A stretch of 64,000 bases of DNA from Microbulbifer hydrolyticus (lineage in GTDB: Bacteria > Pseudomonadota > Gammaproteobacteria > Pseudomonadales > Cellvibrionaceae), in NCBI RefSeq assembly GCF_009931115.1, contig NZ_CP047491.1:744001-808000 (forward strand), given 5' to 3'. A program made the position numbers and the translations under genes. Below the pieces are notes generated by a model that ran no database searches, was not told where the DNA came from, and saw only the letters and a program-made list of their open reading frames with translations. Each line of letters starts with the position of its first letter. Within the stretch, counting starts at the first letter, position 1. This document shows, in pieces, positions 32,946 through 49,828 of this stretch.

Positions 32946-33066
32946 GGGCTGCTCCTTGCTGAAAGGGGGCGCGTTGCCCCTTGGTGCCAGTTGCGTTGAT
33001 TTACTGGATTCCGAGTGTACGGCTTTTGTCCGGCGTTTTCAGGTGGCGCCGTCGCTGGCCGCACTA

Positions 33067-33078
33067 CGTCAATTGACG
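33067..33078. promoter_or_regulatory. 12-bp perfect palindrome upstream of ureD
   Basis: CGTCAATTGACG is a perfect palindrome 98 bases before ureD. Its right half contains TTGACG, a -35-like hexamer; a weak -10-like TGAATC follows at 15 bases. It may be an operator overlapping the urease promoter. Confidence 0.4.
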
Positions 33079-33175
33079 CATTCCGCTCGGTTCTGAATCT
33101 TGTTTCCATTGGCCTTAAATCCATCCTGTACGCCGGGTTCAGTCCGGGCGGCGGGAAACAGCCGCCAGTATTTTC

Positions 33176-34069
33176 ATGAACCAACTTGTCATTCCGGATC
33201 CGACTACCGCAAAGGCCGCCGAGGCGGGCCGTTGGCATGCGGATCTGGAGCTGCAGTTTGAGCGGGGTGAGCGGGGCTGCCGGTTGGCGCGCAATCGTCA
33301 TCGCGGACCTTTATACGTGCAGAAGCCGTTTTTCCCCGAAGGGCGGGATCTGGCGCATGTCTACCTGTTGCACCCTCCCGGCGGGCTGGTGTCGGGGGAC
33401 CGACTGGATATCCGGGTTGAGGTAAAAAAAGACGCGCGGGCCCTGGTGACGACAACGGGTGCGGGCCGGGTCTACCGGGCGCGGAGTGATGGACTGCTGC
33501 AGAGCCAGAATACCTTTTTGCGTGTGGGCGAGGGCGCAAGTCTCGAGTGGTTACCGCTGGAAAATATTGCCTACCCCGGTGCCAACGGTGCCATGCACAC
33601 CCGGATCGAGCTGGCGCGAGATAGTCGATTTTCTGCGTGGGAAATTACCTCACTTGGCCTGCCCGCATGCGATGCAACTTTTGGCAACGGTAGCCTCCTG
33701 CAGCGTCTGGAAATTTTTCGCGAAGGTGTGCCGCTGCTGATCGAGTCGCTGCGCCTGCAGGGTGTCGCGGGGTCTACAGACGGCCTGCTTTCCGCGCGTG
33801 CGGGACTGCAGGGGCATCCGGTAAATGGTCTGCTGGTGATGGGACCTTTTGCACCGGCGGAGTCGGTACAGGAGGCCTGCCGCGCAGTTTTAGCTGCGCA
33901 CGAAAAGCGCTGCCTCGCCGGGATCACCCTGGTCTCCGAAATGATCGTCGTGCGTGCGCTGGGCAAATGTGCCTTCGAGGTGCGCGCCCTGCTGACCGAG
34001 TTATGGGAATTGTTACGGCCCGAGCTGCTCGGGCGCGCCGCCTGTGCACCGCGTATCTGGCGCACCTGA
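33176..34069 (+). CDS. ureD: Urease accessory protein UreD
   Basis: A 297-residue chaperone that binds apo-urease first and, with UreF and UreG, directs nickel into the active site. GPLYVQKPFFPEG, VYLLHPPGGLVSGDRLDI and TTTGAGRVYRA are the standard UreD motifs; LEWLPLENIAYPGA follows. It is the first gene of ureDABCEFG, all in one direction with short gaps, so it is probably cotranscribed with the structural genes. The ATG at 33176 is the only reasonable start; no strong ribosome site is visible. Confidence 0.95.
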   Translation: MNQLVIPDPTTAKAAEAGRWHADLELQFERGERGCRLARNRHRGPLYVQKPFFPEGRDLAHVYLLHPPGGLVSGDRLDIRVEVKKDARALVTTTGAGRVYRARSDGLLQSQNTFLRVGEGASLEWLPLENIAYPGANGAMHTRIELARDSRFSAWEITSLGLPACDATFGNGSLLQRLEIFREGVPLLIESLRLQGVAGSTDGLLSARAGLQGHPVNGLLVMGPFAPAESVQEACRAVLAAHEKRCLAGITLVSEMIVVRALGKCAFEVRALLTELWELLRPELLGRAACAPRIWRT

Positions 34070-34099
34070 ATTTAAAAGAAACCCACCACAGGTTTTTGC

Positions 34100-34402
34100 A
34101 TGGAATTACTGCCGAGAGAAAAAGACAAGCTGCTGGTATTTACCGCGGCCCTGCTGGCGGAGCGCCGTCTGGCGCGGGGACTGAAGCTGAATTATCCGGA
34201 GGCGGTGGCCCTGATCACCATGGAGATCATGGAGGGCGCCCGCGACGGCAAGACGGTTGCCGAGCTGATGGGCTATGGCCGCGAAATCCTGCGCGCGGAC
34301 CAGGTAATCGATGGGGTGGCGGAGCTGGTTCACGAGGTGCAGGTGGAAGCGACTTTCCCGGACGGGACCAAGCTGGTCACCGTACACAACCCCATAAGCT
34401 GA
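34100..34402 (+). CDS. ureA: Urease subunit gamma
   Basis: The 100-residue small subunit. [52 protein letters not shown] and a C-terminal TVHNPIS match the family along its whole length. It has no active-site residues but is needed for the (UreABC)3 trimer. The gap to ureB is 13 bases. Separate gamma and beta subunits are the usual bacterial arrangement. Confidence 0.97.
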
Positions 34403-34415
34403 GGCGGAGACAATT

Positions 34416-34751
34416 ATGATTCCAGGAGAAATCCAGGTCGCCGCGCACAAGGGCGATATCGAACTCAACCGCGGTCGTGAAACCCGCACCCTGCGGGTGG
34501 AAAATACCGGTGATCGCCCGGTTCAGGTTGGCTCCCATTACCACTTTTACGAAGTCAACCCGGCGCTGCGTTTCGAGCGGGAACGCGCGCGTGGTTTTCA
34601 CCTGAATATTGCCTCCGGAACCGCGGTGCGATTCGAGCCGGGGCAGGGGCGTGAGGTGGAGTTGGTGGCTTATGCGGGTCGCCGCATGGTGTACGGTTTC
34701 CGCGGTGAAGTGATGGGTGCCCTGGATGACACAGGAGAATCCATCGTATGA
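34416..34751 (+). CDS. ureB: Urease subunit beta
   Basis: The 111-residue beta subunit. [58 protein letters not shown] and [15 protein letters not shown] span the full family. The stop overlaps the start of ureC (ATGA), showing translational coupling of the two subunits. It is about the length of the Klebsiella subunit (106). Confidence 0.97.
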
Positions 34752-36463
34752 GCCACATGGACAGAGAAAGCTACGCGCAGATGTTCGGCCCCACCACCGG
34801 CGATCGCGTGCGCCTGGCGGACACCGAGCTCTGGCTGCAGGTGGAAAAGGACTTCACCCGCTACGGTGACGAAGTGAAATTCGGCGGTGGCAAGGTAATT
34901 CGCGACGGCATGGGCCAGAGCCAGCGGCCGTCCTCGGATACCCCCGACCTGGTGATTACCAATGCGCTGATTCTGGACCACTGGGGCGTGGTCAAGGCGG
35001 ATGTGGCGATAAAAGATGGTCGCATCGCCGGCATCGGCAAGGCGGGCAACCCGGATGTGCAGGATGGGGTGGATATCATTATCGGCCCGGGAACGGAAAT
35101 TATTGCCGGTGAGGGTTCGATCCTGACCGCCGGCGCCATCGATGCACACATTCATTTTATCTGTCCACAGCAGGTGGAAGAGGCGCTGATGTCCGGTGTC
35201 ACCACCATGATCGGTGGTGGCACCGGCCCCGCTACCGGCACCAACGCGACGACCTGCACGCCGGGGCCGTGGAATATCGGCAAGATGCTGCAGGCCACCG
35301 ACAGCCTGCCGATGAACTTTGGCTTTCTCGGCAAGGGCAATGCCAGTCTGCCGCAAGCACTGGAAGAGCAACTGGAGGCCGGTGCCTGTGGCCTGAAACT
35401 GCACGAGGACTGGGGCACCACGCCGGCCGCCATCGACTGTTGCCTGAGCGTTGCCGAAAAGTACGACGTGCAGGTGGCGATCCACACCGACACCCTGAAT
35501 GAGTCCGGGTTTGTCGACGACACTCTGGGCGCCTTCAAGGGGCGCGCCATACACACCTATCACACCGAGGGCGCCGGCGGTGGCCACGCGCCGGACATCA
35601 TCAAAGCCTGCGCCTCACCCAACGTACTGCCGTCTTCCACCAATCCCACCCGGCCATATACCGTCAACACCGTGGACGAGCACCTGGATATGCTGATGGT
35701 GTGCCACCACCTGGATACCAGTATTCCGGAAGATATCGCGTTTGCGGACTCCCGCATTCGCAAGGAAACCATCGCCGCGGAAGATATCTTCCACGACCTG
35801 GGCGCCTTCAGCATGATCGCCTCAGACTCGCAGGCGATGGGGCGCGTGGGCGAGGTGATTACCCGCACCTGGCAGACCGCGCACAAGATGAAAGTGCAGC
35901 GCGGCAACCTGACCGAAGATGCCCGTGGTGAGACCGAAGGTGCGGACAATTTTCGCGCGCGTCGCTACATTGCCAAGTACACGATCAATCCGGCGATCAC
36001 CCACGGCATCGCCCATGAAGTCGGCTCCATCGAAGCGGGAAAGCTCGCGGATCTGGTGTTATGGAAGCCGGCCTTCTTCGGTATCAAGCCATCGATGATC
36101 ATCAAGGGGGGAATGATTGCCGCAGCGCCCATGGGGGATCCCAACGCGTCCATCCCCACGCCGCAACCGGTGCACTATCGCCCGATGTTCGGCGCCCATG
36201 GCCTGGCCGCTGCCAACACCTCGGTGACCTTTGTATCGAAGGCTGCACTGGAGCGTGACGTCGCGGAAAAACTCGGCCTGCAGCGCGGACTGGTGGCCTG
36301 CAAAAATACCCGCAGTATCACCAAAAAAGACATGCTGCTGAACGACTGGCAACCGGACGTCACCGTGGACCCACAGACTTACGAGGTGCGCGCCGACGGC
36401 GAACTGCTTACCTGCGAGCCCGCCACGGAATTGCCGCTGGCGCAGCGCTACTGCTTATTCTGA
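34748..36463 (+). CDS. ureC: Urease subunit alpha (catalytic)
   Basis: The 571-residue nickel metallohydrolase that splits urea into ammonia and carbamate. All active-site residues fall at the canonical numbers: His133 and His135 (DAHIHF), the carbamylated Lys217 and His219 (GLKLHEDW), His in AIHTDTLNE and [15 protein letters not shown], flap residues Cys319-His320 (MVCHHLD) and Asp360 (ASDSQAMGR). The enzyme is therefore expected to be active. The ATG at 34748 overlaps the ureB stop. Regulation is probably by nitrogen status or urea. Confidence 0.98.
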
Positions 36464-36479
36464 ATCCGAGGACGTACAT

Positions 36480-37013
36480 GTGACACTGGATATCTACCAG
36501 CGCCTGGGTATCGACAGCGGAAAGGCCGCGCAATATTCGATCGTGCTGGACCACCTGCAGCGAGACCGGGGACGGTTACGTGCAAAGACCACCGATGGCA
36601 TCGAAGTGCGGATTTTTCTGGAGCGCGGTAAACCGCTTCAGGTCGGTGAAATACTGCAGAGCCAGTGCGGCAAGTGGGTGAAAGTAATGGGGGCGCAAGA
36701 GCCGGTGACCACCGCGCGCTGTGACGACTGGTTTACCTTCAGTCGCGCCTGCTATCACCTGGGGAATCGCCACGTCAAATTACAAATTGCCAATGCAGAG
36801 GGTGAGGGCGAACGCTGGCTGCGTATAACCCCGGATCACGTTCTGGAAGAGATGCTGGAGTTGCTGGGCCTGAGTCTGAAGCGGGAAACCGCGGTATTTA
36901 TTCCCGAGTCTGGTGCCTACAGCGGAGGCCACTCTCACAGCCACGCGCACAGCCATTCGCACAGCCATCATCACAGTCACGCGCACGACCAGAATGAGCA
37001 TCACCACCACTGA
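36480..37013 (+). CDS. ureE: Urease accessory protein UreE (nickel metallochaperone)
   Basis: A 177-residue nickel carrier. The N-terminal peptide-binding domain (RGRLRAKTTDGIEVRIFLER) is followed by the metal domain with YHLGNRHVKLQI, which has the conserved dimer-interface His. The C-terminal tail (about residues 150-177) has 14 or more His among Ser and Ala, a nickel store as in Klebsiella UreE. The start is a GTG at 36480; GAGG lies about 9 bases upstream, and the ATG two bases earlier is out of frame and followed at once by a stop. The tail overlaps the ureF start by 20 bases. Confidence 0.95.
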   Translation: MTLDIYQRLGIDSGKAAQYSIVLDHLQRDRGRLRAKTTDGIEVRIFLERGKPLQVGEILQSQCGKWVKVMGAQEPVTTARCDDWFTFSRACYHLGNRHVKLQIANAEGEGERWLRITPDHVLEEMLELLGLSLKRETAVFIPESGAYSGGHSHSHAHSHSHSHHHSHAHDQNEHHHH

Positions 37014-37668
37014 CGGCGCGCTGCTGCGCCTGCTGCAACTCTCGAGCGCCAGCCTGCCGGTGGGGGGCTATGCGTTTTCCCAGGGCCTGGAATATGCCAT
37101 CGACATTGGCTGGGTGAGAAATATCGACGACACGCGAGACTGGCTCTCGCTCCAACTACTGGAATCTCTGGCCCAGGTGGACTGCCCGCTACTACTGCGC
37201 TGTCATCGCGCCCTGCAGCAAAATGATACCGGGCAACTGCAGTACTGGAACCACTACGCCCTGGCCTGCCGTGAGACACGGGAACTGCGCCTCACCGACA
37301 CCGCTACCGGTAACGCCCTGATCCGTCTGCTGGCGCAGCTGCACATCGAGCAGCCGATGGGGCGTCAGGAAACCAGTTTTATTACGGCCTTCGCGATTGC
37401 GGCACACCACTGGCACCTTAACGAAGACGCCACTGTCCTGGGGCTGGTCTGGGGCTGGCTCGAAAACCAGGTCGCTGCCGCTACCAAGCTGGTGCCACTG
37501 GGGCAGTCCCAGGCGCAGCAACTGATCGGTGAGATTCAGCAGCAGGTACCCGCAGCCATCGCCCGCGCGCAGCAGTTGCAGGACAGCGAACTCGGTGCTG
37601 GACTGCCGGCACTGGCCATCGCCAGTGCCAAACACGAACATCAATACAGCCGACTCTTCAGGTCGTAA
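36994..37668 (+). CDS. ureF: Urease accessory protein UreF
   Basis: A 224-residue all-helical chaperone that gates GTP hydrolysis of UreG in the UreDFG complex. [20 protein letters not shown] is the standard start; [19 protein letters not shown] and [16 protein letters not shown] follow, and the C-terminal residues [12 protein letters not shown] match the family end. The ATG at 36994 lies inside the His-tail coding region of ureE, so the two are likely coupled. Longer in-frame starts would translate the His-tail region in another frame and are rejected. Confidence 0.95.
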
Positions 37669-37703
37669 CAAGAATTCAAGCAAGTATTCCGTGGAGTAGA
37701 ACC

Positions 37704-38345
37704 ATGACCACAATGAAAAAACAGACCTTGCGCGTCGGCATCGGCGGCCCGGTCGGCTCGGGTAAAACGGCACTGTTGCGTGAACTCTGCAGCGCCATGC
37801 GCGATCACTACGACATCGCCGTCGTCACCAACGACATCTACACCCAGGAAGACGCCAAATTCCTTACTCAGCATGAGGCCCTGAGCGCTGATCGCATTCT
37901 TGGTGTGGAGACCGGCGGCTGTCCCCACACCGCCATCCGTGAAGATGCCTCCATGAACCTCGCTGCCATCGACGAGCTCATTGCCCGTCATGGCGACCTG
38001 GACGTGGTATTCGTGGAAAGCGGCGGCGACAATCTCAGCGCGACCTTCAGCCCGGAACTCTCCGACCTGACCATTTACGTGATCGATGTTTCCGCCGGCG
38101 ACAAAATTCCGCGCAAGGGCGGTCCCGGCATCACCCGCTCCGACCTGTTGATCATCAATAAAATCGACCTGGCCCCACTGGTCGGCGCGTCCCTGGAGGT
38201 CATGGATCGCGACGCGAAAAAAATGCGTGGCGAACGGCCTTTTGTATTCTCCAACCTGAAAGCACAGAAGGGCCTGAAAGAAATCATCGAATTCATCGTG
38301 CGAGAGGGAATGCTGGAAGAAAAAGCCATTCCCGCAATCGCGTGA
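37704..38345 (+). CDS. ureG: Urease accessory protein UreG (GTPase)
   Basis: A 213-residue SIMIBI GTPase that energises nickel insertion. [19 protein letters not shown] is the P-loop, [15 protein letters not shown] switch [20 protein letters not shown] contains the nickel-binding Cys-Pro-His, [16 protein letters not shown] switch II, and [16 protein letters not shown] the guanine-specific NKxD. It is the last recognised urease gene; a short membrane protein follows 40 bases on. Confidence 0.97.
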
Positions 38346-38385: not shown

Positions 38386-38595
38386 ATGAAAATAAAGCAT
38401 CTGATCCTGACCGTTATTGCAACAATTTCCAGCCTCATTAGCCTGTTTGCCACGGCGCACGAAGGCCATGCGCCGGCCGGTATCGTGCACGAATTGCATC
38501 ATATAATGTGGATTGTTATGGCCCTGGCGGTGAGCACTGTAGCAGTTTTTCTGATCCGGAAAGGCCCACAGGAAAAAGAAGATTCCCAGGACTAG
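38386..38595 (+). CDS. Small His-rich membrane protein following ureG
   Basis: A 69-residue protein that I do not recognise as a named family. It has a first hydrophobic segment (HLILTVIATISSLISLFATA) that could be a signal peptide, then AHEGHAPAGIVHELHHIMW with five His, then a second helix (IVMALAVSTVAVFLI) and a charged tail. The His segment recalls the AHxGH...H start of HupE/UreJ nickel permeases, which often follow urease genes, but the remaining helices of those proteins are absent. GAGGAA lies 4 bases from the ATG, and the position suggests it belongs to the urease operon. A role in nickel handling is an inference. Confidence 0.7.
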   Translation: MKIKHLILTVIATISSLISLFATAHEGHAPAGIVHELHHIMWIVMALAVSTVAVFLIRKGPQEKEDSQD

Positions 38596-38648: not shown

Positions 38649-39599
38649 TCAGGAGTCCGGATTCAACGCCCGAATGGCAATGCCCGCAGCGGCGGTCCGG
38701 TTCTCCACCCCGAGCTTGGAGAAAACCCCTTCGAGGTGTTTGTTGACGGTGCGCGGACTCACATCGAGGATCTCGCCGATTTCCCGGTTTGTCTTTCCGT
38801 TCGCTATCCAGAACAAAACTTCCGATTCCCGCTTGGTCAGTGACAGCTTCTCTCGCAGAATATCCTCACCGGCGGGACCGCCATCGTCCACCAGTTTTAA
38901 TAGATAAGTGCTGCTATCCCGCTGCTCAATAAACACCACCGCCAGCGGCTTCTGCAAACCCTCCAGCTTCAATCTGTGGCCCGCGCCCGGGCTGCGCGAC
39001 AACCACATCTGTAAATCCGCCTCCATTTTGCGTTGCAGTATTCCCTCCATGGCGTCCGCACTGCTCAGCAGCGCATAAGTCTGTGGCGTAGCCCAGTGCA
39101 TGCGGCCCGCCGCATCCACGGTGCACAGGAACTGGCCTGTTGAGTCCAGTGCCTGGTGCGCGCTGGATGTCAGGCGTGCGTTGTTCAGGTGCACTTTCAT
39201 GCGGGCCAGCAGCTCGTTCGGCTGGATCGGTTTGGTCAGGTAATCCACGCCACCACTTTCCAGGCCTCTCACGATATTTTCCGAGTCTGTCAGTCCGGTC
39301 ATGAAGATGACCGGGATCGACGCCAGTTCCGGGTCGGCTTTCAGCAGTTTGCAGGTTTCAAAGCCGTCCAGTCCGGGCATCACCGCATCCAGCAGGATCA
39401 TGTCCGGGCGCAGGCGGCGGGCAATATTCAGCGCCTGGCTGCCATCCAGGGCGACGAGCGCATCAATACCCGCCTGCTCCAGGGTATCGTTGATCAGGCT
39501 CAGGGTGTCCGGGGAATCGTCCACCACCAGAACGATATCCCCGGTGTGCGTGTCCGCGGTTGTCCGCGCGGGGCTTGCGGTATCGTCGCAGGTATTCAT
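38649..39599 (-). CDS. Response regulator, REC plus LuxR-type HTH
   Basis: A 316-residue DNA-binding response regulator. The receiver domain runs from IVLVVDDSPDTLSLI to YLTKPIQPNEL, with phospho-acceptor Asp71 in ILLDAVMPGLDG. A middle PAS-like region (about residues 130-235) precedes the C-terminal LuxR helix-turn-helix: LTKRESEVLFWIANGKTNRE and VSPRTVNKHLEGVFSKLGV. The start ATG at 39599 overlaps the stop of the upstream kinase gene (ATGA), so the two form a coupled pair. Lying between the urease and urea-transport operons, it probably controls one or both. The true DNA target is not known from sequence. Confidence 0.92.
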   Translation of the reverse strand: MNTCDDTASPARTTADTHTGDIVLVVDDSPDTLSLINDTLEQAGIDALVALDGSQALNIARRLRPDMILLDAVMPGLDGFETCKLLKADPELASIPVIFMTGLTDSENIVRGLESGGVDYLTKPIQPNELLARMKVHLNNARLTSSAHQALDSTGQFLCTVDAAGRMHWATPQTYALLSSADAMEGILQRKMEADLQMWLSRSPGAGHRLKLEGLQKPLAVVFIEQRDSSTYLLKLVDDGGPAGEDILREKLSLTKRESEVLFWIANGKTNREIGEILDVSPRTVNKHLEGVFSKLGVENRTAAAGIAIRALNPDS

Positions 39600-42500
39600 T
39601 CTCGCTCCTTGATTTCCAGGGCTTCGCTCAACTGCTCGAAGCGCATGGTGTCCGCCAGCTGGCGGAACTGTTCTATACGGTGGTCGGCTACGATTGTTTC
39701 GGCGGCAATCCGGTCCAGTGTCCTGTGCACGCCACTGCGGTAGCCGATGCGCGCGTAGGCCAGCAGTTCTGCCAGCAGCGGATGTTCTGGCAACGCTTGT
39801 GTGGACGCGGTTTGCCGTATCGATGATTTGCACGGGATATCGCGGTCTTTTCCATATACCCAATCGAGCTTCAGCAGGCGGGCAATGGTGTTGAACAGCT
39901 TCTGGTTTACCAGCGGTTTCACCAGGTAGGCATCGTGATGGGCGGGCTCGTCGTCTCCGGGATTCAAGTGCCGCTCCTGGGCGTCGGCCGACAGCATCAC
40001 TATCGGCGCGGTGATACCGCGCGCACGCAGTTGCTCGGCGAGATCCAGCCCGTTCATTCCCGGCATGGTCACATCCAGCAGGAACAGATCCGGCCGCTGA
40101 TGTTGTACCAGTGCCAGGCAGTCCTCGGCACTCTGTGCTTCCATCATGGAAAAGCCGAGCGGCGTCAGCAGGTCGCCGATCAGTCCGCGATGAATGGGTT
40201 CGTCGTCCACCACCATCACGCTGCGACGGGGGCCGTGATAGCCACTGATGCGGCGCACCGGTATTTCGCGGCGGTGGTCCGATTCCACCCATGACAGCAG
40301 CAGCGAAACCGTAAAGCGGCTGCCCTTGCCCGGCTCGCTTTGCATGCGCAGCTCACCACCCATGATTTCTGTGAGCAGGTAGGCAATGGTCAGTCCCAGC
40401 CCGGTGCCGGTGGCCACGGGGCTCTGCCCGTTGCGCACCCGCTCAAACGGTTTAAGTATCCGCGCCTGATCGTCCGCACGAATCCCCACGCCGGTATCTT
40501 CAATGGAAAACTCTGCCACCTGATTGCGGTAGCGGATATGAAAATCCACCTGGCCCTCGCGGGTGTACTTGATGGCATTGGACAACAGATTGATCAGAAT
40601 CTGGCGCAGACGTTTCTCATCGGCAATCACGGTGGATGGTAGCGGGCTGTGGATATGACAGTAAAAGCGCACACCTTTTGCTTCCGCCTGTGGACGGAAC
40701 ATCTCCACCATCTGCTCCAGTAGTTCCGGCAGGCGCACCTGGTTGCGATAGATATCCAAGCGCCCGGCCTCGATCTTGGAGATATCCAGCAGGCCCTCAA
40801 TCAGGTCCGTCAGGTATTCCCCGCTGCGCTTGATGATGCGCAAACCGTTGCGGTGCTTTTCCGGGATATCCTGTTGCTGGTTCAGCAGCTGCGCGTAGCC
40901 GAGAATGGACTGCAATGGAGTGCGCAGTTCGTGGCTGATACCGGACAGGTAGCGGCTCTTGGCGCTGTTGGCCCGATCCGCCTGTTCCTTGGCCGCCTGC
41001 AGCGCGCGATCGGTTTCCTTGTGCGCCTCGATCTCGTTGAGCAGCAGGCGCGTCTGCCGGTTGGACTCCATCTGCGCGACGGTACGGCTGTCGTGGGTAA
41101 GCAGGAACAGCCACGCCAGTACCCCGGAAATCAGCAGTAGCAATACGAACAGTGTCCAGAATGCTTGCTGCAGCAATTCTGCCTCGCCAGTGGTGGCGGG
41201 CTGCAATTGGCCGTAAATCAGTGACAGCACACCGGCGATACACACGCTCGCTCCCAGAAGCAGTATCGCAAAGCGCCCAAGGCGTGAATCCACCCCGTTC
41301 ACGACCCGCTCAGGCACCAGTATTTTCATCAGGGTGGCAAGCTGCTGGGAGAAGCGCGCATCTGGCTTGCACGCATCCAGGCAGCGGGAGTCCAGCGAAC
41401 AGCACAGGGAGCAGATCGGGCCCTGGTAAGCGGGGCAATGGCTCATGTCCGCAGGTTCGAAGTCGTTTTCGCAGATACAACAGGTCTGCGCAGACTGGAC
41501 GCTGGTGCTGACCGTGCGCTGGCCATCGTCGTCATCGCCATAGAGAGAGTCCCGGTGACGGGCCAGGTAGAAGCGCCCGCGGGTGGCCATCCCCAGTAGC
41601 GGCACCATCAAAAAGCAGATGCCGAGGCTGATAAAGCTGGCAAAATTTTTCGCACCATCGCCGAAATGACCGAGATAGCAGACGATGCCAATCAGTGAGG
41701 CCAGCAGCATCGAGCCCACACCCACCGGGTTGAAGTCATACAGGTGTGAGCGCTTGAACTCGACATAGGACGGACTGATGCCGAGAGGCTTGTTGATCAT
41801 CAGGTCTGCGGCGAGGCATCCGAGCCAGCTGATGGCCACCAGTGAAAAAATACCCAGCACCCCCTCGAGCGCGCGATAAATCCCCAGCTCCATCAACACC
41901 AGCGCGATGCTCACGTTGAACACCAGCCACACAACCCGTCCCGGATGGCTGCGGGTCAGGCGCGAGAAAAAATTCGACCAGGCGATGGAGCCCGCATAGG
42001 CGTTGGTGACGTTGATCTTCATCTGCGAGATCACCACCATCACGCCAGCCAGGATCAGTGCCATGGTGGGGGACTGGGTCAGGTAGTTGAACACCATCTG
42101 GTACATACGCACCGGGTCCGCCGCCTGCTCTGCGGAGGCACCGCCGGTGATGGCCAGATAGGCGAGGAAGGAACCGAACAGCATCTTGATCACACCGATG
42201 AAAATCCAGCCCGGCCCGGCAAGCGTCAGCCAGAACCACCAGCGCGCGCGATTCTCGCGGGTCTTTTCTGGCATAAACCGCAGGTAGTCCACCTGCTCGC
42301 CGATCTGCGCGACCATGGCAAAAAATACTGCACTGGCCGCGCCGAATAACATCCAGCTGAACTCGCCACTCTGCGGGTTGTGCTGGGGTGCGTAGCGGGC
42401 CCAGTCCTCCACCCGCGCGAGCTCGAACCAGGCGGCAATACCGAGCGCGAGGCACTGCAACAACAGCCACAGCGGCTGGGTGCCGATCTGAAACTTGCTC

Positions 42501-43012
42501 ACCGCCCGGATACCGTGGGTCACAATTGGGATCACGGCCACCGCGCAGAGGATATAACCGATGGCCGGCGGTATGCCGAGCAGGGCGTGCAGCGCGGAGG
42601 TGAGTATCGCAGCCTCGATGGCGAAGAAGATGAACGTGAAGGAGGCGTAGATCAGCGAAGTGATGGTGGAGCCGAGGTAGCCGAAACCGGCACCGCGGGT
42701 GAGCAGGTCGATGTCGAGGCCGTGTTTGGCCGCGTAATAGGTGATGGGGAAGCCGGTAATGAAGATCACTGCGGCCACCGCGAGCATCGCGGTGACGGTG
42801 TTGATAAAGCCGTAGTTGAGGGTCACTGCCGCGGCGATGGCTTCCAGGGCGAGGAAGGCGGTGGCTCCGAGCGCGGTCTTCGCCACCTGTTCAATGGTAA
42901 AGCGGCGCCCGCGCACGGCGGTAAAGCGCAGTGCGAAGTCTTCGAGGGTCTCGTCTCCCACCCACTTGTTGTAGGTCCGCCGTACGCGGAATACCTGTTG
43001 TGCGGGTCGCAT
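39596..43012 (-). CDS. NCS1-permease-like hybrid sensor histidine kinase
   Basis: A 1138-residue fusion. Residues about 1-490 form a permease of the NCS1 (purine/cytosine/allantoin) type with around twelve helices, starting YNKWVGDETLEDFALRFTA. Residues about 510-555 form a Cys-rich segment (CCICENDF, CPAYQGPICSLCC). Two helices lead to a kinase core with SGISHELRTPLQ (phospho-acceptor His694), LLSNAIKYT, DTGVGIRADD and GTGLGLTIAYLL, then a receiver domain with Asp980 (LLDVTMPGMNG). There is no HPt domain. The ATG at 43012 fits this start; a GTG at 43060 is also in frame. Neighbours suggest it senses urea or a related compound. Such permease-kinase fusions are known, CbrA being a parallel built on another transporter class. 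Confidence 0.9.
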   Translation of the reverse strand: MRPAQQVFRVRRTYNKWVGDETLEDFALRFTAVRGRRFTIEQVAKTALGATAFLALEAIAAAVTLNYGFINTVTAMLAVAAVIFITGFPITYYAAKHGLDIDLLTRGAGFGYLGSTITSLIYASFTFIFFAIEAAILTSALHALLGIPPAIGYILCAVAVIPIVTHGIRAVSKFQIGTQPLWLLLQCLALGIAAWFELARVEDWARYAPQHNPQSGEFSWMLFGAASAVFFAMVAQIGEQVDYLRFMPEKTRENRARWWFWLTLAGPGWIFIGVIKMLFGSFLAYLAITGGASAEQAADPVRMYQMVFNYLTQSPTMALILAGVMVVISQMKINVTNAYAGSIAWSNFFSRLTRSHPGRVVWLVFNVSIALVLMELGIYRALEGVLGIFSLVAISWLGCLAADLMINKPLGISPSYVEFKRSHLYDFNPVGVGSMLLASLIGIVCYLGHFGDGAKNFASFISLGICFLMVPLLGMATRGRFYLARHRDSLYGDDDDGQRTVSTSVQSAQTCCICENDFEPADMSHCPAYQGPICSLCCSLDSRCLDACKPDARFSQQLATLMKILVPERVVNGVDSRLGRFAILLLGASVCIAGVLSLIYGQLQPATTGEAELLQQAFWTLFVLLLLISGVLAWLFLLTHDSRTVAQMESNRQTRLLLNEIEAHKETDRALQAAKEQADRANSAKSRYLSGISHELRTPLQSILGYAQLLNQQQDIPEKHRNGLRIIKRSGEYLTDLIEGLLDISKIEAGRLDIYRNQVRLPELLEQMVEMFRPQAEAKGVRFYCHIHSPLPSTVIADEKRLRQILINLLSNAIKYTREGQVDFHIRYRNQVAEFSIEDTGVGIRADDQARILKPFERVRNGQSPVATGTGLGLTIAYLLTEIMGGELRMQSEPGKGSRFTVSLLLSWVESDHRREIPVRRISGYHGPRRSVMVVDDEPIHRGLIGDLLTPLGFSMMEAQSAEDCLALVQHQRPDLFLLDVTMPGMNGLDLAEQLRARGITAPIVMLSADAQERHLNPGDDEPAHHDAYLVKPLVNQKLFNTIARLLKLDWVYGKDRDIPCKSSIRQTASTQALPEHPLLAELLAYARIGYRSGVHRTLDRIAAETIVADHRIEQFRQLADTMRFEQLSEALEIKERE

Positions 43013-43423
43013 GGCCTGTTGATCGTTGTCGTTATTTTTGCCCGTAAATGTTCCAACCACCGGGTGCTGCCTACTGCTTGTTTCTCGTCATGTTCTTTTT
43101 CTTGCAACAAGAATACCGAATTACACCACTCAATTACGCTTTTGCGGCTCAAAAGCCTGATAACAGGGTGCCGCTAGCGGGTAAAGCCGTATGAGATCTT
43201 GCACCAGATAGCGCTCCCTTCAGCCGGCCAGAAGGGTGAATTACCGGGTTCCGGTTCTTGCCGCCATTAGTGTACGTACACCCTCACATCTGAAAACCGT
43301 CAAATGACGTAGGCACCGGCCCCAATACGCGTATGGCTCCCCTGTGCCACCGGTCGAATAATCGATAGCAGCAAAAAATAACCAATCGAGACCAGGGTCA
43401 AGACCAAAACCAAGGGGAAATAC
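43013..43423. other. Intergenic region between the sensor kinase and the porin gene
   Basis: 411 bases between divergent genes, expected to carry promoters for the two-component system and for the urea uptake operon. The palindrome at 43270-43281 is the only clear element. I found no properly spaced sigma-54 site. Confidence 0.5.
43270..43281. promoter_or_regulatory. 12-bp perfect palindrome upstream of the porin-urt genes
   Basis: GTGTACGTACAC is a perfect palindrome 142 bases before the porin start, a plausible binding site for a dimeric regulator such as the nearby LuxR-type protein. No second copy was noticed before ureD. Confidence 0.45.
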
Positions 43424-44581
43424 ATGGAAACGTTGTCAGGAGGTTTGCGACCGCAAGGTGCGTCGCAGTCGAAAAAAGTGTTCGGTCGCAGTGTCTGCGC
43501 CGCGGCGGTGCTGGCCGCGAGTGTGGCACCACTGCCGGCATTCGCCAAACAGTTCGAATCCGAAGGTGGGCAGACGTTCAGTATCGGTGCCGGGTTCCGC
43601 TCCCAGTTCCAGTCCGTGGAAGGAGATAGTGAATTTACCCTGCCGGACATCCGGGTATACAGCTCCGGGCAGCTGAGCGACACAGTGAAATTCACATTCA
43701 ACTTGCAGCAGCGGAGCAACGATACCGCCGATGTGCTGGATGCGATTGCGCAATTCGAGTTCAGCCCGGAGTTCAACATCTGGGCCGGGCGCATGCTGAC
43801 GCCGGCGGACCGTATCGAGATGAGTGGCCCCTATTACGCGCTCAGCTGGAACCAGTACCGGCAGCCACTGTACGCCTCCGACCAGGGCGGTCAGGCGGGA
43901 CTGATCGGGCGCGATGAAGGGATCACCTTCTGGGGCACCGCCGGCAAGTTCCAGTATGCCGTGGGAAGTTTTATCGGACTGGATGAATACTCCAACCAGG
44001 ACGAAAACCCGCTGTACGCGGCGCGCTTCGCCTACAACTTCCTGAATATGGAATCCAACCCGGGTTACTACACCAGCTCAACCTATTACGGTGGGCTCGA
44101 TAATATTTTCACCCTCGCACTTTCCCTGCAGAGCCAGGAAGACGGTGTCGGCAGTGCCGAGAGTGCCGGAGACTTTTCCGGTTGGACCGTGGATATGCTC
44201 TCCGAGACGGTGCTCGACGCCGGTGGTGTGATCACCGTCGAGGCCGAATACAAAAGCTTTGATGCGGATTACACCCTTGCTTCCCAACCGCTGGCTGGCG
44301 ACTGCTTCTGCCTGTTTGACGGCGAGTCAGCGTTCGCCACCGCCGCCTATCTGTTCCCGGCCAATGTCGGTCCTGGCAAGTTCCAGCCGTACCTGCGCCT
44401 GGTGGAAAACAGCCCCTCCGACGCCGACAGCAGCAGCTCTACCGAGCTCGGCCTCAACTATGTGGTCAATGGCCACAACACCCGCCTGAACCTGAGCTTT
44501 GTCTCCGGCGATGCCAACGCATCCGGCTATGCCGGTGCGGATGTAGATGTACTGAGCCTGGGGATGCAGGTACAGCTGTAA
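43424..44581 (+). CDS. Outer-membrane porin preceding urea transporter genes
   Basis: A 385-residue porin precursor. The signal peptide is SVCAAAVLAASVAPLPAFA after a polar N-region of about 25 residues. GGQTFSIGAGFRSQF begins the barrel, LPDIRVYSSGQLSDTVKFTF and FEFSPEFNIWAGRMLTPADR follow an OprO/phosphate-porin-like plan, and the chain ends in VDVLSLGMQVQL with alternating hydrophobic residues. AAGGGG lies 8 bases from the ATG. Only 52 bases separate it from urtA, so it probably lets urea or short amides cross the outer membrane for the UrtA system. The substrate is inferred from position. Confidence 0.75.
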   Translation: METLSGGLRPQGASQSKKVFGRSVCAAAVLAASVAPLPAFAKQFESEGGQTFSIGAGFRSQFQSVEGDSEFTLPDIRVYSSGQLSDTVKFTFNLQQRSNDTADVLDAIAQFEFSPEFNIWAGRMLTPADRIEMSGPYYALSWNQYRQPLYASDQGGQAGLIGRDEGITFWGTAGKFQYAVGSFIGLDEYSNQDENPLYAARFAYNFLNMESNPGYYTSSTYYGGLDNIFTLALSLQSQEDGVGSAESAGDFSGWTVDMLSETVLDAGGVITVEAEYKSFDADYTLASQPLAGDCFCLFDGESAFATAAYLFPANVGPGKFQPYLRLVENSPSDADSSSSTELGLNYVVNGHNTRLNLSFVSGDANASGYAGADVDVLSLGMQVQL

Positions 44582-44633
44582 GTCGACTGCGTGCGCTTCA
44601 CGCGATTTGAAAATAATGAACAGGAGCAATTCC

Positions 44634-45920
44634 ATGAGCATGAAAAAATTTGTTGCCGGGCTCGCCTTTGCGGCCGGTACCAGTGTCATCAGCGCCGCGG
44701 CAATGGCGGCGGAAACCATCAAGGTAGGTGTATTGCACTCTCTCTCGGGGACTATGGCGATCAGTGAAACCACATTGAAAGACACTGTGCTGATGATGGT
44801 GGAAGAGCAGAACCGCAAAGGAGGCCTGCTGGGTAAGAAGCTCGAAGCGGTGGTTGTCGACCCGGCCTCGGACTGGCCGCTGTTTGCGGAGAAAGCCCGC
44901 GAACTGATCACCAAGGAAAAAGTGGATGTGATCTTTGGCTGCTGGACATCGGTATCGCGTAAATCCGTGCTGCCGGTGATCGAGGAACTGAACGGCCTGA
45001 TGTTTTACCCGGTGCAGTACGAAGGCGAAGAGTCTTCGAAGAATGTGTTCTACACCGGTGCCTCGCCGAATCAGCAGGCGATTCCCGCGGTGGATTACCT
45101 GATGTCTGACCTGGAAGTGGAGCGCTGGGTACTGGCGGGGACCGACTATGTGTATCCGCGTACCACCAACAAGATTCTGGAGTCTTACCTGGAGTCCAAT
45201 GGTGTGGCCAAGGAAGACATCCTGATCAACTACACACCGTTCGGTCATTCCGACTGGCAGAGCATCGTTTCCGACATTAAGAAATTTGGCAGCACCGGTA
45301 AGAAGACCGCCGTGGTCTCCACCATCAACGGTGATGCCAATGTGCCCTTCTACAAGGAACTCGCCAACCAGGGCATCAGCTCGGAAGATATCCCGGTGGT
45401 GGCCTTCTCCGTGGGTGAAGAGGAGCTCTCTGGCATCGACACCGGTCCGCTGGTGGGGCACCTGGCTGCCTGGAACTACTTCCAGGGCATTGATAGCGAA
45501 GCCAATGAGTATTTCGTACAGCAATGGAAGAAGTTTATCGGTGACGAAAAACGCGTGACCAACGACCCCATGGAGGCGACCTATATCGGTTTCAACATGT
45601 GGGCCAAGGCGGTTGAAAAAGCCGGCTCCACAGAGGTGGATGCGGTCGAGCAGGCGATGATCGGCATCGAGTTCCCGAACCTGACCGGTGGCGTGGCGAA
45701 AATGAACAAGAACCACCACCTGTCCAAGCCGGTATTTATCGGTGAGATTCAGGACGACGGACAGTTTGAAGTGGTTTGGGAAACCGACGGCGTTGTGCCT
45801 GGCGATGCCTGGTCAGACTTCCTGCCCGGCTCCAAGGACCTGATTGCCGACTGGACCGCGCCGATCAAGTGCGGCAACTACAACACCAAGGCCGAGGCTT
45901 GCAGCGGCCAGGTACAGTAA
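44634..45920 (+). CDS. urtA: Urea ABC transporter, substrate-binding protein
   Basis: A 428-residue periplasmic binding protein of the branched-chain amino acid/amide class. The signal peptide (FAAGTSVISAAAMAA) precedes TIKVGVLHSLSGTMAISE, the standard UrtA start. IFGCWTSVSRKSVLPV, GLMFYPVQYEGEESSKN and VFYTGASPNQQAIPAV are strongly conserved in UrtA and separate it from amide-binding FmdD and LivJ proteins. AGGAG is 7 bases from the ATG at 44634. Four further urt genes follow in order. In other bacteria this operon responds to nitrogen limitation. Confidence 0.95.
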   Translation: MSMKKFVAGLAFAAGTSVISAAAMAAETIKVGVLHSLSGTMAISETTLKDTVLMMVEEQNRKGGLLGKKLEAVVVDPASDWPLFAEKARELITKEKVDVIFGCWTSVSRKSVLPVIEELNGLMFYPVQYEGEESSKNVFYTGASPNQQAIPAVDYLMSDLEVERWVLAGTDYVYPRTTNKILESYLESNGVAKEDILINYTPFGHSDWQSIVSDIKKFGSTGKKTAVVSTINGDANVPFYKELANQGISSEDIPVVAFSVGEEELSGIDTGPLVGHLAAWNYFQGIDSEANEYFVQQWKKFIGDEKRVTNDPMEATYIGFNMWAKAVEKAGSTEVDAVEQAMIGIEFPNLTGGVAKMNKNHHLSKPVFIGEIQDDGQFEVVWETDGVVPGDAWSDFLPGSKDLIADWTAPIKCGNYNTKAEACSGQVQ

Positions 45921-46170
45921 TCCCGATGACGGTGGTGAATGGTGGCTCTTTTTCTTCACGGAAGAAAGGAAAAGTAAGCCCGCAAGTGAATTCGCCACCG
46001 ATCACAGGGTAAGCCGGACTGCTCTCTGCCTGTAGAGGAGCCCGGCCAGGGAGTTGGCCCCGACAACCCATTCAGTATTGGATTGTCCGGGGCCTGTTTC
46101 CGTTTCGGCGCTATTGAAAGTCGGCCGAAGTATTACTGATTCGCGTATCGCAATTACCGCGGGGTTTTCT

Positions 46171-47793
46171 GTGAAAAAATTAATACTGAGTTGTGGCCTG
46201 CTGCTGGCAGTGTTTGCCGGCATTTCCGTGCAGGCGCAGCCGCACTCTGTACCTCCAGCAGTGGACGCCACGCTAGAGCAGCTGACTGAAGCCAGCTTGC
46301 GCGAGACGGCTACGCTGGTCGAGCAGCTCGAGCAGTCTGGTGGCGCCGCCATGCGTCCGTTGTTTGAAACCATGCTGGCCGGCGATCTCCACTATCACAA
46401 GACCACCAGACAGCTGATGGCGGTACAGAAAAATGCTGCCGGAGAGCCGGTCGGGCGGGACATATTTACCGGCGCGGACCTGGGCGTACAGGAACGGCGG
46501 GACATCAAGAAAATCCGCGTAAACAATCGCCTGCGAGGCCAGCTGCGCGAGGCCATAGGGCGGATTGATCTGCTGCATGGTAGCGAAGCGCAAAAACGCA
46601 CCGCGGTGCTCGCAATACTCGACGACCTCTCCGCTGACAATATGCGCCTGCTGCAGAGTGCCACCGAGGCCGGTGTGAACCCGGCAGTTGAAGACCTGAT
46701 TGCGCTGGCCAACGCCATGGTGCGCCTGCGCGACAGCAGCGATACGGAAGAGCGCCTGGGGGCGATCGCATTGATGAGCGAACGCCTGGAATCACCGGTG
46801 CGCAACCAGCTGCGGGGTCTGCTGGAAAACCAAAGCGAGCAGGATGCCGCGGTGAAGGCAGCGGCACAGAAAGCGCTCGACAAGATTTCCGAGCGCATTG
46901 AATTTTACGGGCAGATGGAACAGCTGTTTTTCGGCCTCAGCCTGGGTTCGGTGCTTGTACTGGCCGCAATAGGCCTCGCCATCACCTTCGGTGTGATGGG
47001 CGTAATCAATATGGCGCACGGCGAAATGATCATGCTCGGCGCCTATACCACCTATGTGATCCAGCAACTGATGCCGCAAGCGATCGGATACTCACTGCTG
47101 GTGGCGGTGCCGGCGGCCTTTCTGGTCTCCGGTAGTGTCGGTGTACTGATTGAGCGCGGCGTGATACGGCACTTGCAGGGGCGGCCACTGGAAACACTGC
47201 TGGCCACGTTCGGTATCAGTCTGATCCTGCAGCAGGCAGTCCGTAGTATTTTCTCGCCACTGAATATGCAGGTGGTCACGCCGGAATGGATGAGTGGCTC
47301 CCTGGCCATCAATCCGGTGTTCTCGGTGACCTATAACCGGCTGTACATACTTTTGTTCGCACTGGCAGTATTTTTTGCGCTGGTGATGGTGCTGAAAAAG
47401 TCTTCCCTCGGACTGAATGTCCGCGCGGTATCCCAGAACCGGGATATGGCAAAGGCCATGGGCGTGCGTACGGAAATGGTCGACGCAATGACCTTCGGCC
47501 TCGGTTCCGGGATTGCCGGTGTTGCCGGCGTGGCGCTGTCGCAGCTCACCAATGTAGGACCAAACCTCGGCCAGTCCTACATCATCGATTCCTTTATGGT
47601 GGTGGTGTTTGGCGGTGTCGGTAATCTGCTCGGGACACTGGTGGGTGGCTTTTCCCTGGGCGTGGCGAACAAATTCCTCGAGCCGGCCACCGGCGCCGTG
47701 CTCGCCAATATTATCGTACTGGTATGCCTGATCCTGTTTATCCAGAAGCGGCCGAAAGGGCTGTTTCCCCAACGCGGAAGGGCGGCAGAATGA
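46171..47793 (+). CDS. urtB: Urea ABC transporter, permease UrtB
   Basis: A 540-residue permease of the LivH type. A signal peptide (LSCGLLLAVFAGISVQAQ) leads to an extra N-terminal domain of about 220 residues, rich in charged helices, which is usual for proteobacterial UrtB. The membrane part begins MEQLFFGLSLGSVLVLAA near residue 249, with INMAHGEMIMLGAYTTYV and FGLGSGIAGVAGVALSQL. The start is a GTG at 46171 preceded by GGGG; upstream in-frame codons do not look like coding sequence. The stop overlaps urtC (ATGA). The 250 bases after urtA contain no evident terminator. Confidence 0.93.
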   Translation: MKKLILSCGLLLAVFAGISVQAQPHSVPPAVDATLEQLTEASLRETATLVEQLEQSGGAAMRPLFETMLAGDLHYHKTTRQLMAVQKNAAGEPVGRDIFTGADLGVQERRDIKKIRVNNRLRGQLREAIGRIDLLHGSEAQKRTAVLAILDDLSADNMRLLQSATEAGVNPAVEDLIALANAMVRLRDSSDTEERLGAIALMSERLESPVRNQLRGLLENQSEQDAAVKAAAQKALDKISERIEFYGQMEQLFFGLSLGSVLVLAAIGLAITFGVMGVINMAHGEMIMLGAYTTYVIQQLMPQAIGYSLLVAVPAAFLVSGSVGVLIERGVIRHLQGRPLETLLATFGISLILQQAVRSIFSPLNMQVVTPEWMSGSLAINPVFSVTYNRLYILLFALAVFFALVMVLKKSSLGLNVRAVSQNRDMAKAMGVRTEMVDAMTFGLGSGIAGVAGVALSQLTNVGPNLGQSYIIDSFMVVVFGGVGNLLGTLVGGFSLGVANKFLEPATGAVLANIIVLVCLILFIQKRPKGLFPQRGRAAE

Positions 47794-48986
47794 GTGTAAC
47801 GAATCCCGTGTGGGAAAAAATTGGCAGTGCGCTGACGGAGTTGCGTCAACCGGGTAAGGGTTCCTCAGCACTGGTCGGCATTCTGCTGGTAACGACGCTT
47901 GGTATGTCGGCGGCCAACCTGTTGTTACCGGCGGACTCGCCACTGTATGTCAGCACCTACACCATCACCCTGATGGGTAAGTACCTGTGCTTCGCCATGC
48001 TTGCCATGGCGGTGGACATCATCTGGGGTTATTGCGGCATCCTGAGCCTGGGCCACGGCGCCTTTTTCGCACTGGGTGGTTACGGCATGGGTATGTACCT
48101 GATGCGTCAGATCGGCGACCGCGGTGTCTACGGCAACCCGGACCTGCCGGACTTTATGGTGTTCCTGAACTGGCAGGAGCTGCCCTGGTACTGGTTTGGC
48201 ATGGACCAGTTCTGGTTTGCGGTGGTGATGGCGCTTGCCGTACCTGGGCTGCTGGCGTTCGTGTTTGGCTGGCTGGCGTTTCGCTCGCGGGTGACTGGTG
48301 TTTACCTCTCGATCATGACCCAGGCGTTGACCTACGCACTGATGCTGGCGTTCTTCCGCAATGAAATGGGCTTTGGCGGCAACAACGGGCTGACGGATTT
48401 CAAGGATATTCTCGGTTTCGACCTGCAAGTGGATGCAACCAGGGTGGCGCTGCTGCTGGTGACCACGCTGTTGCTGGTGATCACGTTTATTACCAGCCGC
48501 GCGATTGTGCAATCGCGCCTCGGCCGGGTGATCGTGGCGGTGCGCGATGCTGAGGCGCGGGCGCGCTTTCTCGGCTACCGCACCGAGCGCTACAAGGTGT
48601 GGCTGTTTGTCTATTCGGCGCTGATTGCCGCGGTGGCGGGGATGTTATACGTGCCGCAGGTGGGCATCATCAATCCCGGTGAATTTTCCCCGCTCAATTC
48701 CATCGAGGTGGTGGTGTGGGTTGCCGTTGGCGGACGCGGCACCCTTTATGGCGCCATTGTGGGCGCTCTGCTGGTGAATTACGCCAAAACCCGCTTTACC
48801 GCGATCATGCCGGACGGCTGGTTGTTCGCACTGGGGGCGCTGTTTGTGATCGTGACCGTGTATCTACCCAAAGGGCTGGCGGGCTTGTTGCAACGTTTCG
48901 GTAGTGAAGAAACCGCGCAACCCGCGCGGCGCAATGCGGGTGCCGACACTGACGGTGGAGTGCGTGCCCGGGAGGCTAATGCATGA
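47790..48986 (+). CDS. urtC: Urea ABC transporter, permease UrtC
   Basis: A 398-residue permease of the LivM type. LCFAMLAMAVDIIWGYCGIL and LSLGHGAFFALGGYGMGMYL are the conserved first helices, FGGNNGLTDFKDILGF is a UrtC signature and IVAVRDAEARARFLGY the coupling loop for the ATPases. The ATG overlaps the urtB stop and the urtC stop overlaps urtD, so the four genes urtB-urtE are translationally chained. The C-terminal tail of about 30 residues is polar and probably cytoplasmic. Confidence 0.95.
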   Translation: MSVTNPVWEKIGSALTELRQPGKGSSALVGILLVTTLGMSAANLLLPADSPLYVSTYTITLMGKYLCFAMLAMAVDIIWGYCGILSLGHGAFFALGGYGMGMYLMRQIGDRGVYGNPDLPDFMVFLNWQELPWYWFGMDQFWFAVVMALAVPGLLAFVFGWLAFRSRVTGVYLSIMTQALTYALMLAFFRNEMGFGGNNGLTDFKDILGFDLQVDATRVALLLVTTLLLVITFITSRAIVQSRLGRVIVAVRDAEARARFLGYRTERYKVWLFVYSALIAAVAGMLYVPQVGIINPGEFSPLNSIEVVVWVAVGGRGTLYGAIVGALLVNYAKTRFTAIMPDGWLFALGALFVIVTVYLPKGLAGLLQRFGSEETAQPARRNAGADTDGGVRAREANA

Positions 48987-49828
48987 ACAGTCTGAACCAA
49001 TTTGCCGGGCAGGCGCGCGAGCTGCTGCGCCGGGATACCACCTGGCCTTTTCTGGTACCGCGCAAGCGGTCGGTGGATGTGTCGAAAAACGTCATCCTGT
49101 ACCTGGAGGGCCTGAATGTCAGCTTTGACGGCTTCAAGGCACTGAATAACCTAAACCTGTACGTGAATGACGGCGAGCTGCGGTGCCTGATCGGCGCCAA
49201 TGGCGCCGGTAAAACGACCCTGATGGATGTGATTACCGGCAAGACCCAGTGCGACAGCGGCAGTGCCTGGTTTGGGCGAAATATCGACCTGCTGGCCCAC
49301 GACGAGGCGGAGATCGCCCAGCTGGGGATTGGGCGCAAATTCCAGAAGCCCACGGTATTCGAGGCACACACGGTGTTCCACAACCTGGAACTGTCGCTAC
49401 AGGGCAGCAAGGGCGTGTGGAGCGCGTTGACCGCAAAACTGTCCAGCAGTGAGTGCGACCGAATCGACGAAGTACTGAAGACGATCGGCCTGGAAAAATG
49501 CCGCTATCAGCTCGCGGGTGCATTATCCCATGGACAGAAACAGTGGCTGGAAATCGGCATGTTGCTGGCGGCCCAGCCGCGCCTGCTGCTGGTGGATGAA
49601 CCGGTGGCGGGAATGACGGCGGAGGAAACGGAACGCACGGCAGAATTGCTGACTTCCCTTGCGGGCGAGCACACCGTGATCGTGGTGGAGCACGACATGG
49701 AATTCGTGCGCAGTATTGCGCGTACGGTGACGGTTTTACATCAGGGCTCGGTGCTTGCGGAGGGCTCGATGGATCAGGTACAGAGCAATCCCGACGTGAT
49801 TGAGGTATATCTGGGGGAGGAAGCATGA
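48983..49828 (+). CDS. urtD: Urea ABC transporter, ATPase UrtD
   Basis: A 281-residue ATPase of the LivG type. IGANGAGKTTLMDVITG is Walker A, LSHGQKQWLEIGMLLA the signature motif in the LSHGQ form usual for UrtD, and LLLVDEPVAGMTAEETER Walker B with catalytic Glu; VVEHDMEFVRSIA gives the switch His. About 35 residues before the nucleotide domain (SGQARELLRRDTTW-like start) are extra. It overlaps both neighbours by ATGA. Confidence 0.95.
   Translation: MNSLNQFAGQARELLRRDTTWPFLVPRKRSVDVSKNVILYLEGLNVSFDGFKALNNLNLYVNDGELRCLIGANGAGKTTLMDVITGKTQCDSGSAWFGRNIDLLAHDEAEIAQLGIGRKFQKPTVFEAHTVFHNLELSLQGSKGVWSALTAKLSSSECDRIDEVLKTIGLEKCRYQLAGALSHGQKQWLEIGMLLAAQPRLLLVDEPVAGMTAEETERTAELLTSLAGEHTVIVVEHDMEFVRSIARTVTVLHQGSVLAEGSMDQVQSNPDVIEVYLGEEA

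Follow-up and report, generated by a model that had tools for sequence, protein, structure and literature searches.

A hybrid histidine kinase with an NCS1-like membrane domain, a candidate sensor of urea and short-chain amides, and the conserved palindrome linked to it

The window analysed here, a stretch of 64,000 nucleotides from the genome of Microbulbifer hydrolyticus, contains the genes for a sensor kinase and a response regulator, located between two sets of genes for the use of urea. The first gene of the pair (39596..43012, reverse strand) encodes a hybrid kinase of 1138 amino acids that is fused to an NCS1-like membrane domain, as judged from its reading frame, Pfam domains and fold. 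We placed its start at the ATG at 43012 and its stop codon at 39596-39598; an in-frame GTG at 43060 would give a protein of 1154 amino acids. The second gene (38649..39599, reverse strand) encodes a REC-LuxR response regulator of 316 amino acids, identified from its frame and its Pfam REC and GerE (LuxR type) domains, and the two genes overlap in the ATGA at 39599-39596. The pair is flanked on one side by the ureDABCEFG urease operon (33176..38345, forward strand) and on the other by a porin-like gene and urtABCDE (43424..50520, forward strand), both of which are predicted targets. A sequence-only reading of the same DNA had described a permease joined to a Cys-rich segment, a histidine kinase and a receiver, coupled by the ATGA overlap to a REC-LuxR regulator and lying between the two operons. 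All of this was borne out: the architecture as a 12-helix LeuT-fold domain, Cys segment, histidine kinase and receiver; the coupling at the positions given above; and the location by the neighboring genes. Nor is the fusion a chance assembly, since 81 such fusions were counted, among the matches listed, in 79 of the 293 genomes of the order.

A His-rich frame of 69 amino acids lies 3′ of ureG (38386-38595, forward strand); it has a signal-like start, one hydrophobic helix and no Pfam match, and in seven other loci of the order its place is taken by a HupE-like gene of 199 amino acids. With respect to RNA control, a search of positions 25000-56000 with Rfam returned a single match, to 5_ureB_sRNA (RF02514, 89 bits, 34899-35182, reverse strand), which is antisense to ureC and of which the conserved coding strand may be the sole cause.

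Pfam recognized HisKA, HATPase_c and REC domains in the long protein and gave no match before residue 700 of the 1154-amino acid form. An AlphaFold2 model of residues 1-676, made from an alignment of the window protein and 50 relatives, had a mean pLDDT of 85 and a pTM of 0.86, and predicts a LeuT-type bundle of 12 helices, the first of which is broken. When the model was compared with solved structures by Foldseek, the top match was CodB (7qoa; E-value 1.8e-8, target TM-score 0.72-0.77, 20% identity). Mhp1 was also matched (2jln; E-value 2.1e-7), and chains of these two proteins occupied ranks 1-4 among the PDB matches, with other LeuT-fold transporters, such as Nramp and the SSS protein SiaT, ranking below them; Pfam gave no match to an SLC5 (SSS) transporter domain in the membrane domain. 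Based on the model, Foldseek and profile comparison, we assigned residues ~1-485, numbered from the ATG at 43012, to an NCS1-like (LeuT-fold) domain (41558..43012, reverse strand).

None of the 24 fused members reached the gathering score of the Pfam family PF02133, which also had no match across the organism's whole genome, and the NCBIfam cytosine permease model matched 9 of 51 members, the window's own protein not being among them. In searches of the solved structures, a single membrane-domain sequence had no sequence match, and a membrane-domain profile produced two, both at chance level. Profile comparison with hhalign was weak (probability 16%) for a 24-row alignment against CodB alone, and reached a probability of 96-98% when more rows were compared with an NCS1 set, where the set comprised 27 rows, some of them rough longest-frame picks, and the hhalign E-value refers to one comparison only.

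The bridge is provided by unfused relatives, which are 41-42% identical to the membrane domain of the window. The gene for the Klebsiella homologue (535 amino acids, annotated as a cytosine permease) lies 3′ of ureG, and the protein retains a stub of the Cys segment at its end. In genome G568, a second unfused gene likewise lies 3′ of ureG, with a NicO-type nickel gene next. The third, in G553, and a fusion are divergently oriented and separated by a one-mismatch copy of the palindrome described below; this unfused gene is followed by genes for a formamidase and an aliphatic amidase. At a PF02133 cut-off of 23.5, the Klebsiella (37.7 bits) and G568 (31.8 bits) proteins pass; the G553 protein had no Pfam match. 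The best reading is that the membrane domain is NCS1-derived. The label "NCS1-like" given to it from the sequence alone is upheld by the fold, the profile comparison and the two unfused relatives that pass PF02133, but not by Pfam on the fused form itself.

In CodB, the residues that bind sodium include T278 and T279 of helix 8, and those that bind cytosine are Q105, W108 and F204 (cited passages of PMC9379551). In a profile alignment, the Thr pair falls on K332-I333 of the sensor (numbered from the ATG at 43012), and Lys332-Ile333 was found in 33/33 urea-linked and 96/96 Fmd-linked rows; the CodB-type Na2 Ser/Thr pair on helix 8 thus appears to be absent from the sensor family, and K332 may supply a fixed positive charge that replaces the sodium. 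NCS1 proteins are not sodium-driven in all cases. The unfused Klebsiella relative keeps Lys-Ile-Asn at this position, and Lys-Ile is therefore a trait of the branch that extends beyond the sensors alone. An alignment with NCS1 proteins to find substrate residues, which the sequence-only reading had recommended, was successful in part: in addition to K332-I333, it placed T126 opposite Q105, and F129 opposite W108, one of the aromatics that sandwich the substrate, while the helix-6 aromatic had no sure placement.

These residues bear upon the idea that the protein is a working importer as well, in which the kinase responds to transport flux instead of binding. The full transporter fold is kept, the unfused relatives are carrier-like, and the SLC5 domain of CbrA is reported to be capable of histidine uptake (cited passages of PMC13022988). 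However, the CodB sodium-site pair is Lys-Ile in all counted rows, even if the same is true of the unfused relative, and kinase activation in CrbS/CbrA is reported to be independent of transport (cited passages of PMC5715377). We therefore regard a flux-driven kinase as rather unlikely, and favor binding to the domain as the signal.

The membrane domain is followed by a Cys-rich unit (residues 511-548; 41369..41482, reverse strand), whose eight Cys residues are invariant in 51/51 rows, confirming that the Cys-rich segment noted earlier is real. Between this unit and the kinase, the AlphaFold2 model places two further long hydrophobic helices (residues ~577-640; 41093..41284, reverse strand) that the sequence-only reading had missed. 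The HisKA and HATPase_c kinase core (40298..40963, reverse strand) and the receiver domain of the hybrid kinase (39884..40219, reverse strand) were both assigned by Pfam. The 8-Cys unit occupies the position of a STAC domain, where Pfam, which may hold no STAC model, gave no match, and a comparison of the Cys-rich part with solved structures produced five matches, all at chance level. Among 156 rows, the H box pattern was found in 80 and the N box pattern in 144, the patterns being so narrow that misses carry no meaning. A simple pattern for an HPt-like motif found none in the C-termini of 156 sequences, and direct phosphotransfer from the kinase to the regulator would therefore be the simpler route.

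The family is widespread in Proteobacteria, with at least 582 relatives of the membrane domain among species genomes, and 525 plasmid records match the domain, 342 of which are from Klebsiella. On one of these plasmids, from K. pneumoniae (NZ_CP098166.1; L221), the sensor, annotated as an ATP-binding protein, and a urt-formamidase cluster are divergently oriented, and a palindrome with one mismatch separates them; a cluster of this kind has been named UTS in a preprint, the cited passages of which are silent on the sensor (PMC13060141). The kinase is joined to the membrane domain in 79 of the 80 loci of the order, the remaining one ending at a contig edge, and in 76/80 named loci, the exceptions being L124, which continues past its contig end, and L128, L160 and L173, which end early. 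A class-wide search found 2 of 19 places to be unfused, as judged by frame length. A relative of the REC-LuxR regulator, in some cases partial, adjoins the fusion in 79/80 order loci.

When ~7 kb on each side of the order loci was inspected, where the contig allowed, urt, urease or Fmd-type ABC genes were found in 66 of the 80 (urt in 9, urease only in 15, Fmd-type in 42) and none of them in 14. Such genes were also present in 67/80 named loci, and one further locus has an amidase only, so the linkage in other genomes that the sequence-only reading had wished to see checked does exist. Many of the Fmd-type operons also encode the formamidase FmdA, an amidase resembling AmiE/AmiF or an AmiB-like ATPase; at one locus, FmdA and an aliphatic amidase were confirmed by model. 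Among the matches listed, UrtA-like genes occur in 78/79 fusion genomes and 78/214 others, with the proviso that TIGR03407 scores Fmd-type binding proteins as UrtA as well, and urease alpha occurs in 69/79 and 76/214, respectively. Related genomes are not independent; in a comparison stratified by genus, using the 20 genera that hold both states, the co-occurrence of UrtA-like genes and the fusion persists. In the window's own genus, three fusion genomes have both UrtA and urease, and three fusion-free genomes have neither.

Genome G087 was excluded from the 79 fusion genomes, as its kinase lacks the membrane domain. There (L281, 11205-12965), a 586-amino acid kinase of the family without the NCS1-like domain, together with its LuxR-type partner, adjoins Fmd-type and urease genes. 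As a separate observation, Fmd-type binding proteins of the order genomes that are ~36-41% identical to the UrtA of the window pass the curated UrtA cut-off of TIGR03407, and amide transporters are therefore probably often mislabelled as urea transporters.

Genomes G065 and G150 each have a fusion at urease and a second one at an Fmd operon. When a membrane-domain tree was labelled by context, two changes between urea and Fmd sufficed for 131 labelled rows, 25 unlinked rows having been set aside; compared with the full remainder of the rows, the sensors linked to Fmd do not form one clade (p 0.00026). This agreement between tree and context is relevant to the suggestion that the kinase responds to an intracellular signal, such as metal, redox or nitrogen status, through the Cys-rich unit or the receiver, the membrane domain being an anchor. 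In favor of such a signal are the invariance of the eight Cys residues (51/51), the nickel requirement of urease, and the G087 kinase, which stands beside Fmd and urease genes without an NCS1-like part. Nevertheless, the membrane domain is strongly conserved, its buried polar positions included, and its tree tracks the urea or amide context, so that we consider an intracellular signal to be quite unlikely.

The linkage favors urea as the signal at the window locus, as the sequence-only reading had proposed, but in a family that is broader than was then envisaged, its largest group being found with Fmd-type amide/urea ABC transporters and with formamidase or amidase genes. The same reading had offered a second possible ligand, a purine product formed upstream of urea, such as allantoin, for which there is precedent in that the characterized cargo of NCS1 proteins is mostly nucleobases, hydantoin or allantoin (cited passages of PMC13390362). 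Yet the neighbors of the sensors are urea and amide genes, with no allantoin genes noticed in the loci read, the unfused relatives are located in urease or formamidase/amidase operons, and NCS1 proteins are reported to accept metformin, a linear compound (cited passages of PMC13390362). Allantoin or purine sensing was consequently rejected as most improbable, leaving urea and short-chain amides as the preferred ligands.

Within 420 bp 5′ of the kinase genes, the dyad CGTCA-N2-TGACG was present in 27 of 81 regions; five-base dyads never exceeded three in ten shuffles. The pattern TACGTCANNTGACGTA fits 28/81 of the kinase-upstream regions with at most one mismatch (shuffles, 0/1620) and 34/81 with at most two (shuffles, 4/1620), both counts having been made on the same 81 regions that yielded the palindrome. 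The counts for the window, its own genome, the order, the named loci and the regions before urtA, given below, use other places or genomes.

The window has two predicted operators. One, TACGTCAATTGACGCA (33065..33080), is an exact match located 95 bp 5′ of ureD; the other, ACCGTCAAATGACGTA (43296..43311), has an intact core and two outer mismatches, and lies 112 bp 5′ of the porin gene, separated from the kinase ATG by 284 bp. A third match, at 54656 with three mismatches, is at chance level, at least three hits having been obtained in 7/100 shuffles of the window. The site at 33065-33080 is the sole exact TACGTCANNTGACGYA in the 4.2-Mb genome. When two mismatches are allowed, this genome has no excess of pattern matches over those of the reversed control (13 and 35 rows, respectively); the core is present at six sites, the two in the window included, compared with four for the control. 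On these counts, only position and exactness favor the two sites. The palindrome recurs at the same two places in the two further fusion genomes of the genus. A promoter scan detected no sigma-70-like promoter near either palindrome. The presence of a common palindrome upstream of ureD and of the porin-urt genes lends in silico backing to the earlier proposal that the regulator controls both operons.

In the order as a whole, the exact TRCGTCANNTGACGYA occurs in 51/79 fusion genomes and in 9/214 others, an association that holds within the 20 genera (p 9e-6); it is absent genome-wide from 28/79 fusion genomes. Among the matches listed, 43/57 copies in fusion genomes precede urtA-like or kinase genes, compared with 0/12 in the others, and in 14 genomes the copy precedes urtA with the kinase >10 kb away or on another contig, where distances to urtA refer to the matches listed and weaker urtA-like genes fall outside them. 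The other 14 of the 57 copies include those of G000 and G249, which precede ureD, that of G126, between an amidase gene and fmdD, and a second copy in G258, near which no urea or amide marker was found.

We also compared the 1.5 kb before urtA, in which a copy with at most two mismatches was found in 13 of 19 fusion regions and in 0/20 fusion-free regions, the latter hand-chosen from 78 fusion-free genomes with UrtA. Three of the 19 (L251-L253) were already known to carry the exact site, and three (L254-L256) are from genomes with an Fmd-linked fusion. Ten of the remaining 13 had a copy at this threshold, compared with 17/1000 shuffled 1.5-kb regions. Where the fusion is Fmd-linked and urtA stands apart from it (three genomes), the best copy before that urtA has at least four mismatches. 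Among the named loci, the palindrome is 5′ of the kinase in 24/77 with at most one mismatch, including Roseobacter and Methylocystaceae records. The Bradyrhizobium loci (L141-L181) have an altered palindrome, mostly TACGCAAGATYGCGTA, ~90-130 bp before the kinase match, which is perhaps a co-evolved site.

The palindrome could instead be owned by another regulator of nitrogen genes, the kinase-regulator pair being a mere neighbor. Exact copies do occur in nine fusion-free genomes, for example in G203, 101 bp 5′ of fmdA, and in G087, ~500 bp 5′ of ureD, beside the kinase without a membrane domain; in G292, G016, G119 and G079, no marker was found near the copy. Four or five of eight places with such odd copies showed no urea or amide marker, and one of these is in reach of a fusion genome. 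Against another owner, none of the 20 fusion-free genomes has a copy, even with two mismatches, in the 1.5 kb before urtA (0/20), and the association with the fusion persists within genera (p 9e-6); we judge this alternative to be very unlikely, and retain the co-encoded regulator as the probable owner. As a further observation, G292 (L277) has two identical perfect palindromes, at 4553 and 4787, 234 bp apart; this genome lacks both the fusion and a UrtA match, and the 10 kb read there showed no marker for urea or amide use.

We propose that the sensor is a transceptor, whose NCS1-derived domain would bind urea at the window locus and, in the Fmd-linked relatives, short-chain amides such as formamide and acetamide. 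The binding state would be passed through the Cys-rich unit and the last pair of helices to the hybrid kinase, which would phosphorylate the co-encoded REC-LuxR regulator. The regulator, probably as a dimer, would then bind the palindrome and switch on uptake (porin-urtABCDE) and hydrolysis (ureDABCEFG). To this explanation as a whole, a transceptor derived from NCS1 that responds to urea and short-chain amides and controls their uptake and hydrolysis, we assign a probability of roughly 0.7. It is supported in silico by the architecture, the fold, the linkage, the palindrome and the distribution of the palindrome; we infer the ligand, the route of the phosphate, the identity of the regulator as the palindrome binder, and an effect that is activation and not repression. 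That the unfused relatives sit where a Urt-like ABC transporter is found elsewhere is the best pointer to urea or small amides as ligands. The fused kinase probably signals urea or small amides in many bacteria, and the matching DNA sites before the urea genes suggest that its regulator partner turns them on.

The closest precedent for the sensor-regulator pair is CrbS/R. CrbS has an SLC5 domain, STAC, and a hybrid kinase with a C-terminal receiver, and acts with the LuxR-family regulator CrbR, which works at an imperfect inverted repeat (cited passages of PMC5715377). Both CrbS/CrbR (acetate) and CbrA/CbrB (histidine) resemble the window sensor in having a transporter domain fused to a histidine kinase (cited passages of PMC5715377 and PMC13022988), and the CrbS form, a hybrid kinase with REC and a LuxR-type partner, is also that of the window sensor. 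In contrast to these systems, the fold of the window sensor is nearest to NCS1, rather than SLC5, a Cys-rich unit and two helices take the place of STAC, and the family adjoins urea and amide genes instead of acetate or histidine genes. CodB and Mhp1 are its top fold matches, and two unfused sensor relatives pass PF02133; compared with them, the sensor is ~20% identical or less, is below PF02133 in its fused form, has Lys-Ile at the CodB Thr pair, and carries a fused kinase. The gene set beside many sensor relatives is the same as that of the Methylophilus fmd operon, which, in the review passage available, is induced by formamide and urea and has a regulator that is only putative. The NCS1-like sensor is a candidate to account for such fmd-type responses to urea and amides. 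Among the papers listed in the literature searches, which covered only part of the subscription papers, we recognized no earlier account of an NCS1-like sensor kinase. In UhpC/UhpB of enteric bacteria, a homologue of a transporter serves as the receptor that controls a transporter gene; compared with the sensor, these are two separate proteins, belong to another fold family, and respond to sugar phosphates.

Urea and small amides are major nitrogen sources. What is new here is the palindrome TRCGTCANNTGACGYA and its link to genomes that carry the fusion: a conserved predicted operator precedes urea and amide genes and is tied to the presence of the sensor. As a candidate receptor, its partner, an exact predicted operator at defined places and the likely regulon are now named, the question of how urea and amides are sensed becomes directly testable. 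The unfused proteins, one of which is labelled as a cytosine permease, are marked as candidate carriers of urea or amides. If the proposal is true, a second transporter fold would join the short list of transporter-kinase fusions. In the widest view, to which we give even odds, this branch of the NCS1 fold would be a urea and short-chain-amide family in which the sodium site was replaced by a fixed lysine; its unfused permeases would serve in urease and formamidase operons, and the far commoner kinase-fused receptor would be the missing urea/amide sensor in hundreds of Proteobacteria, with a single conserved operator through which it acts.
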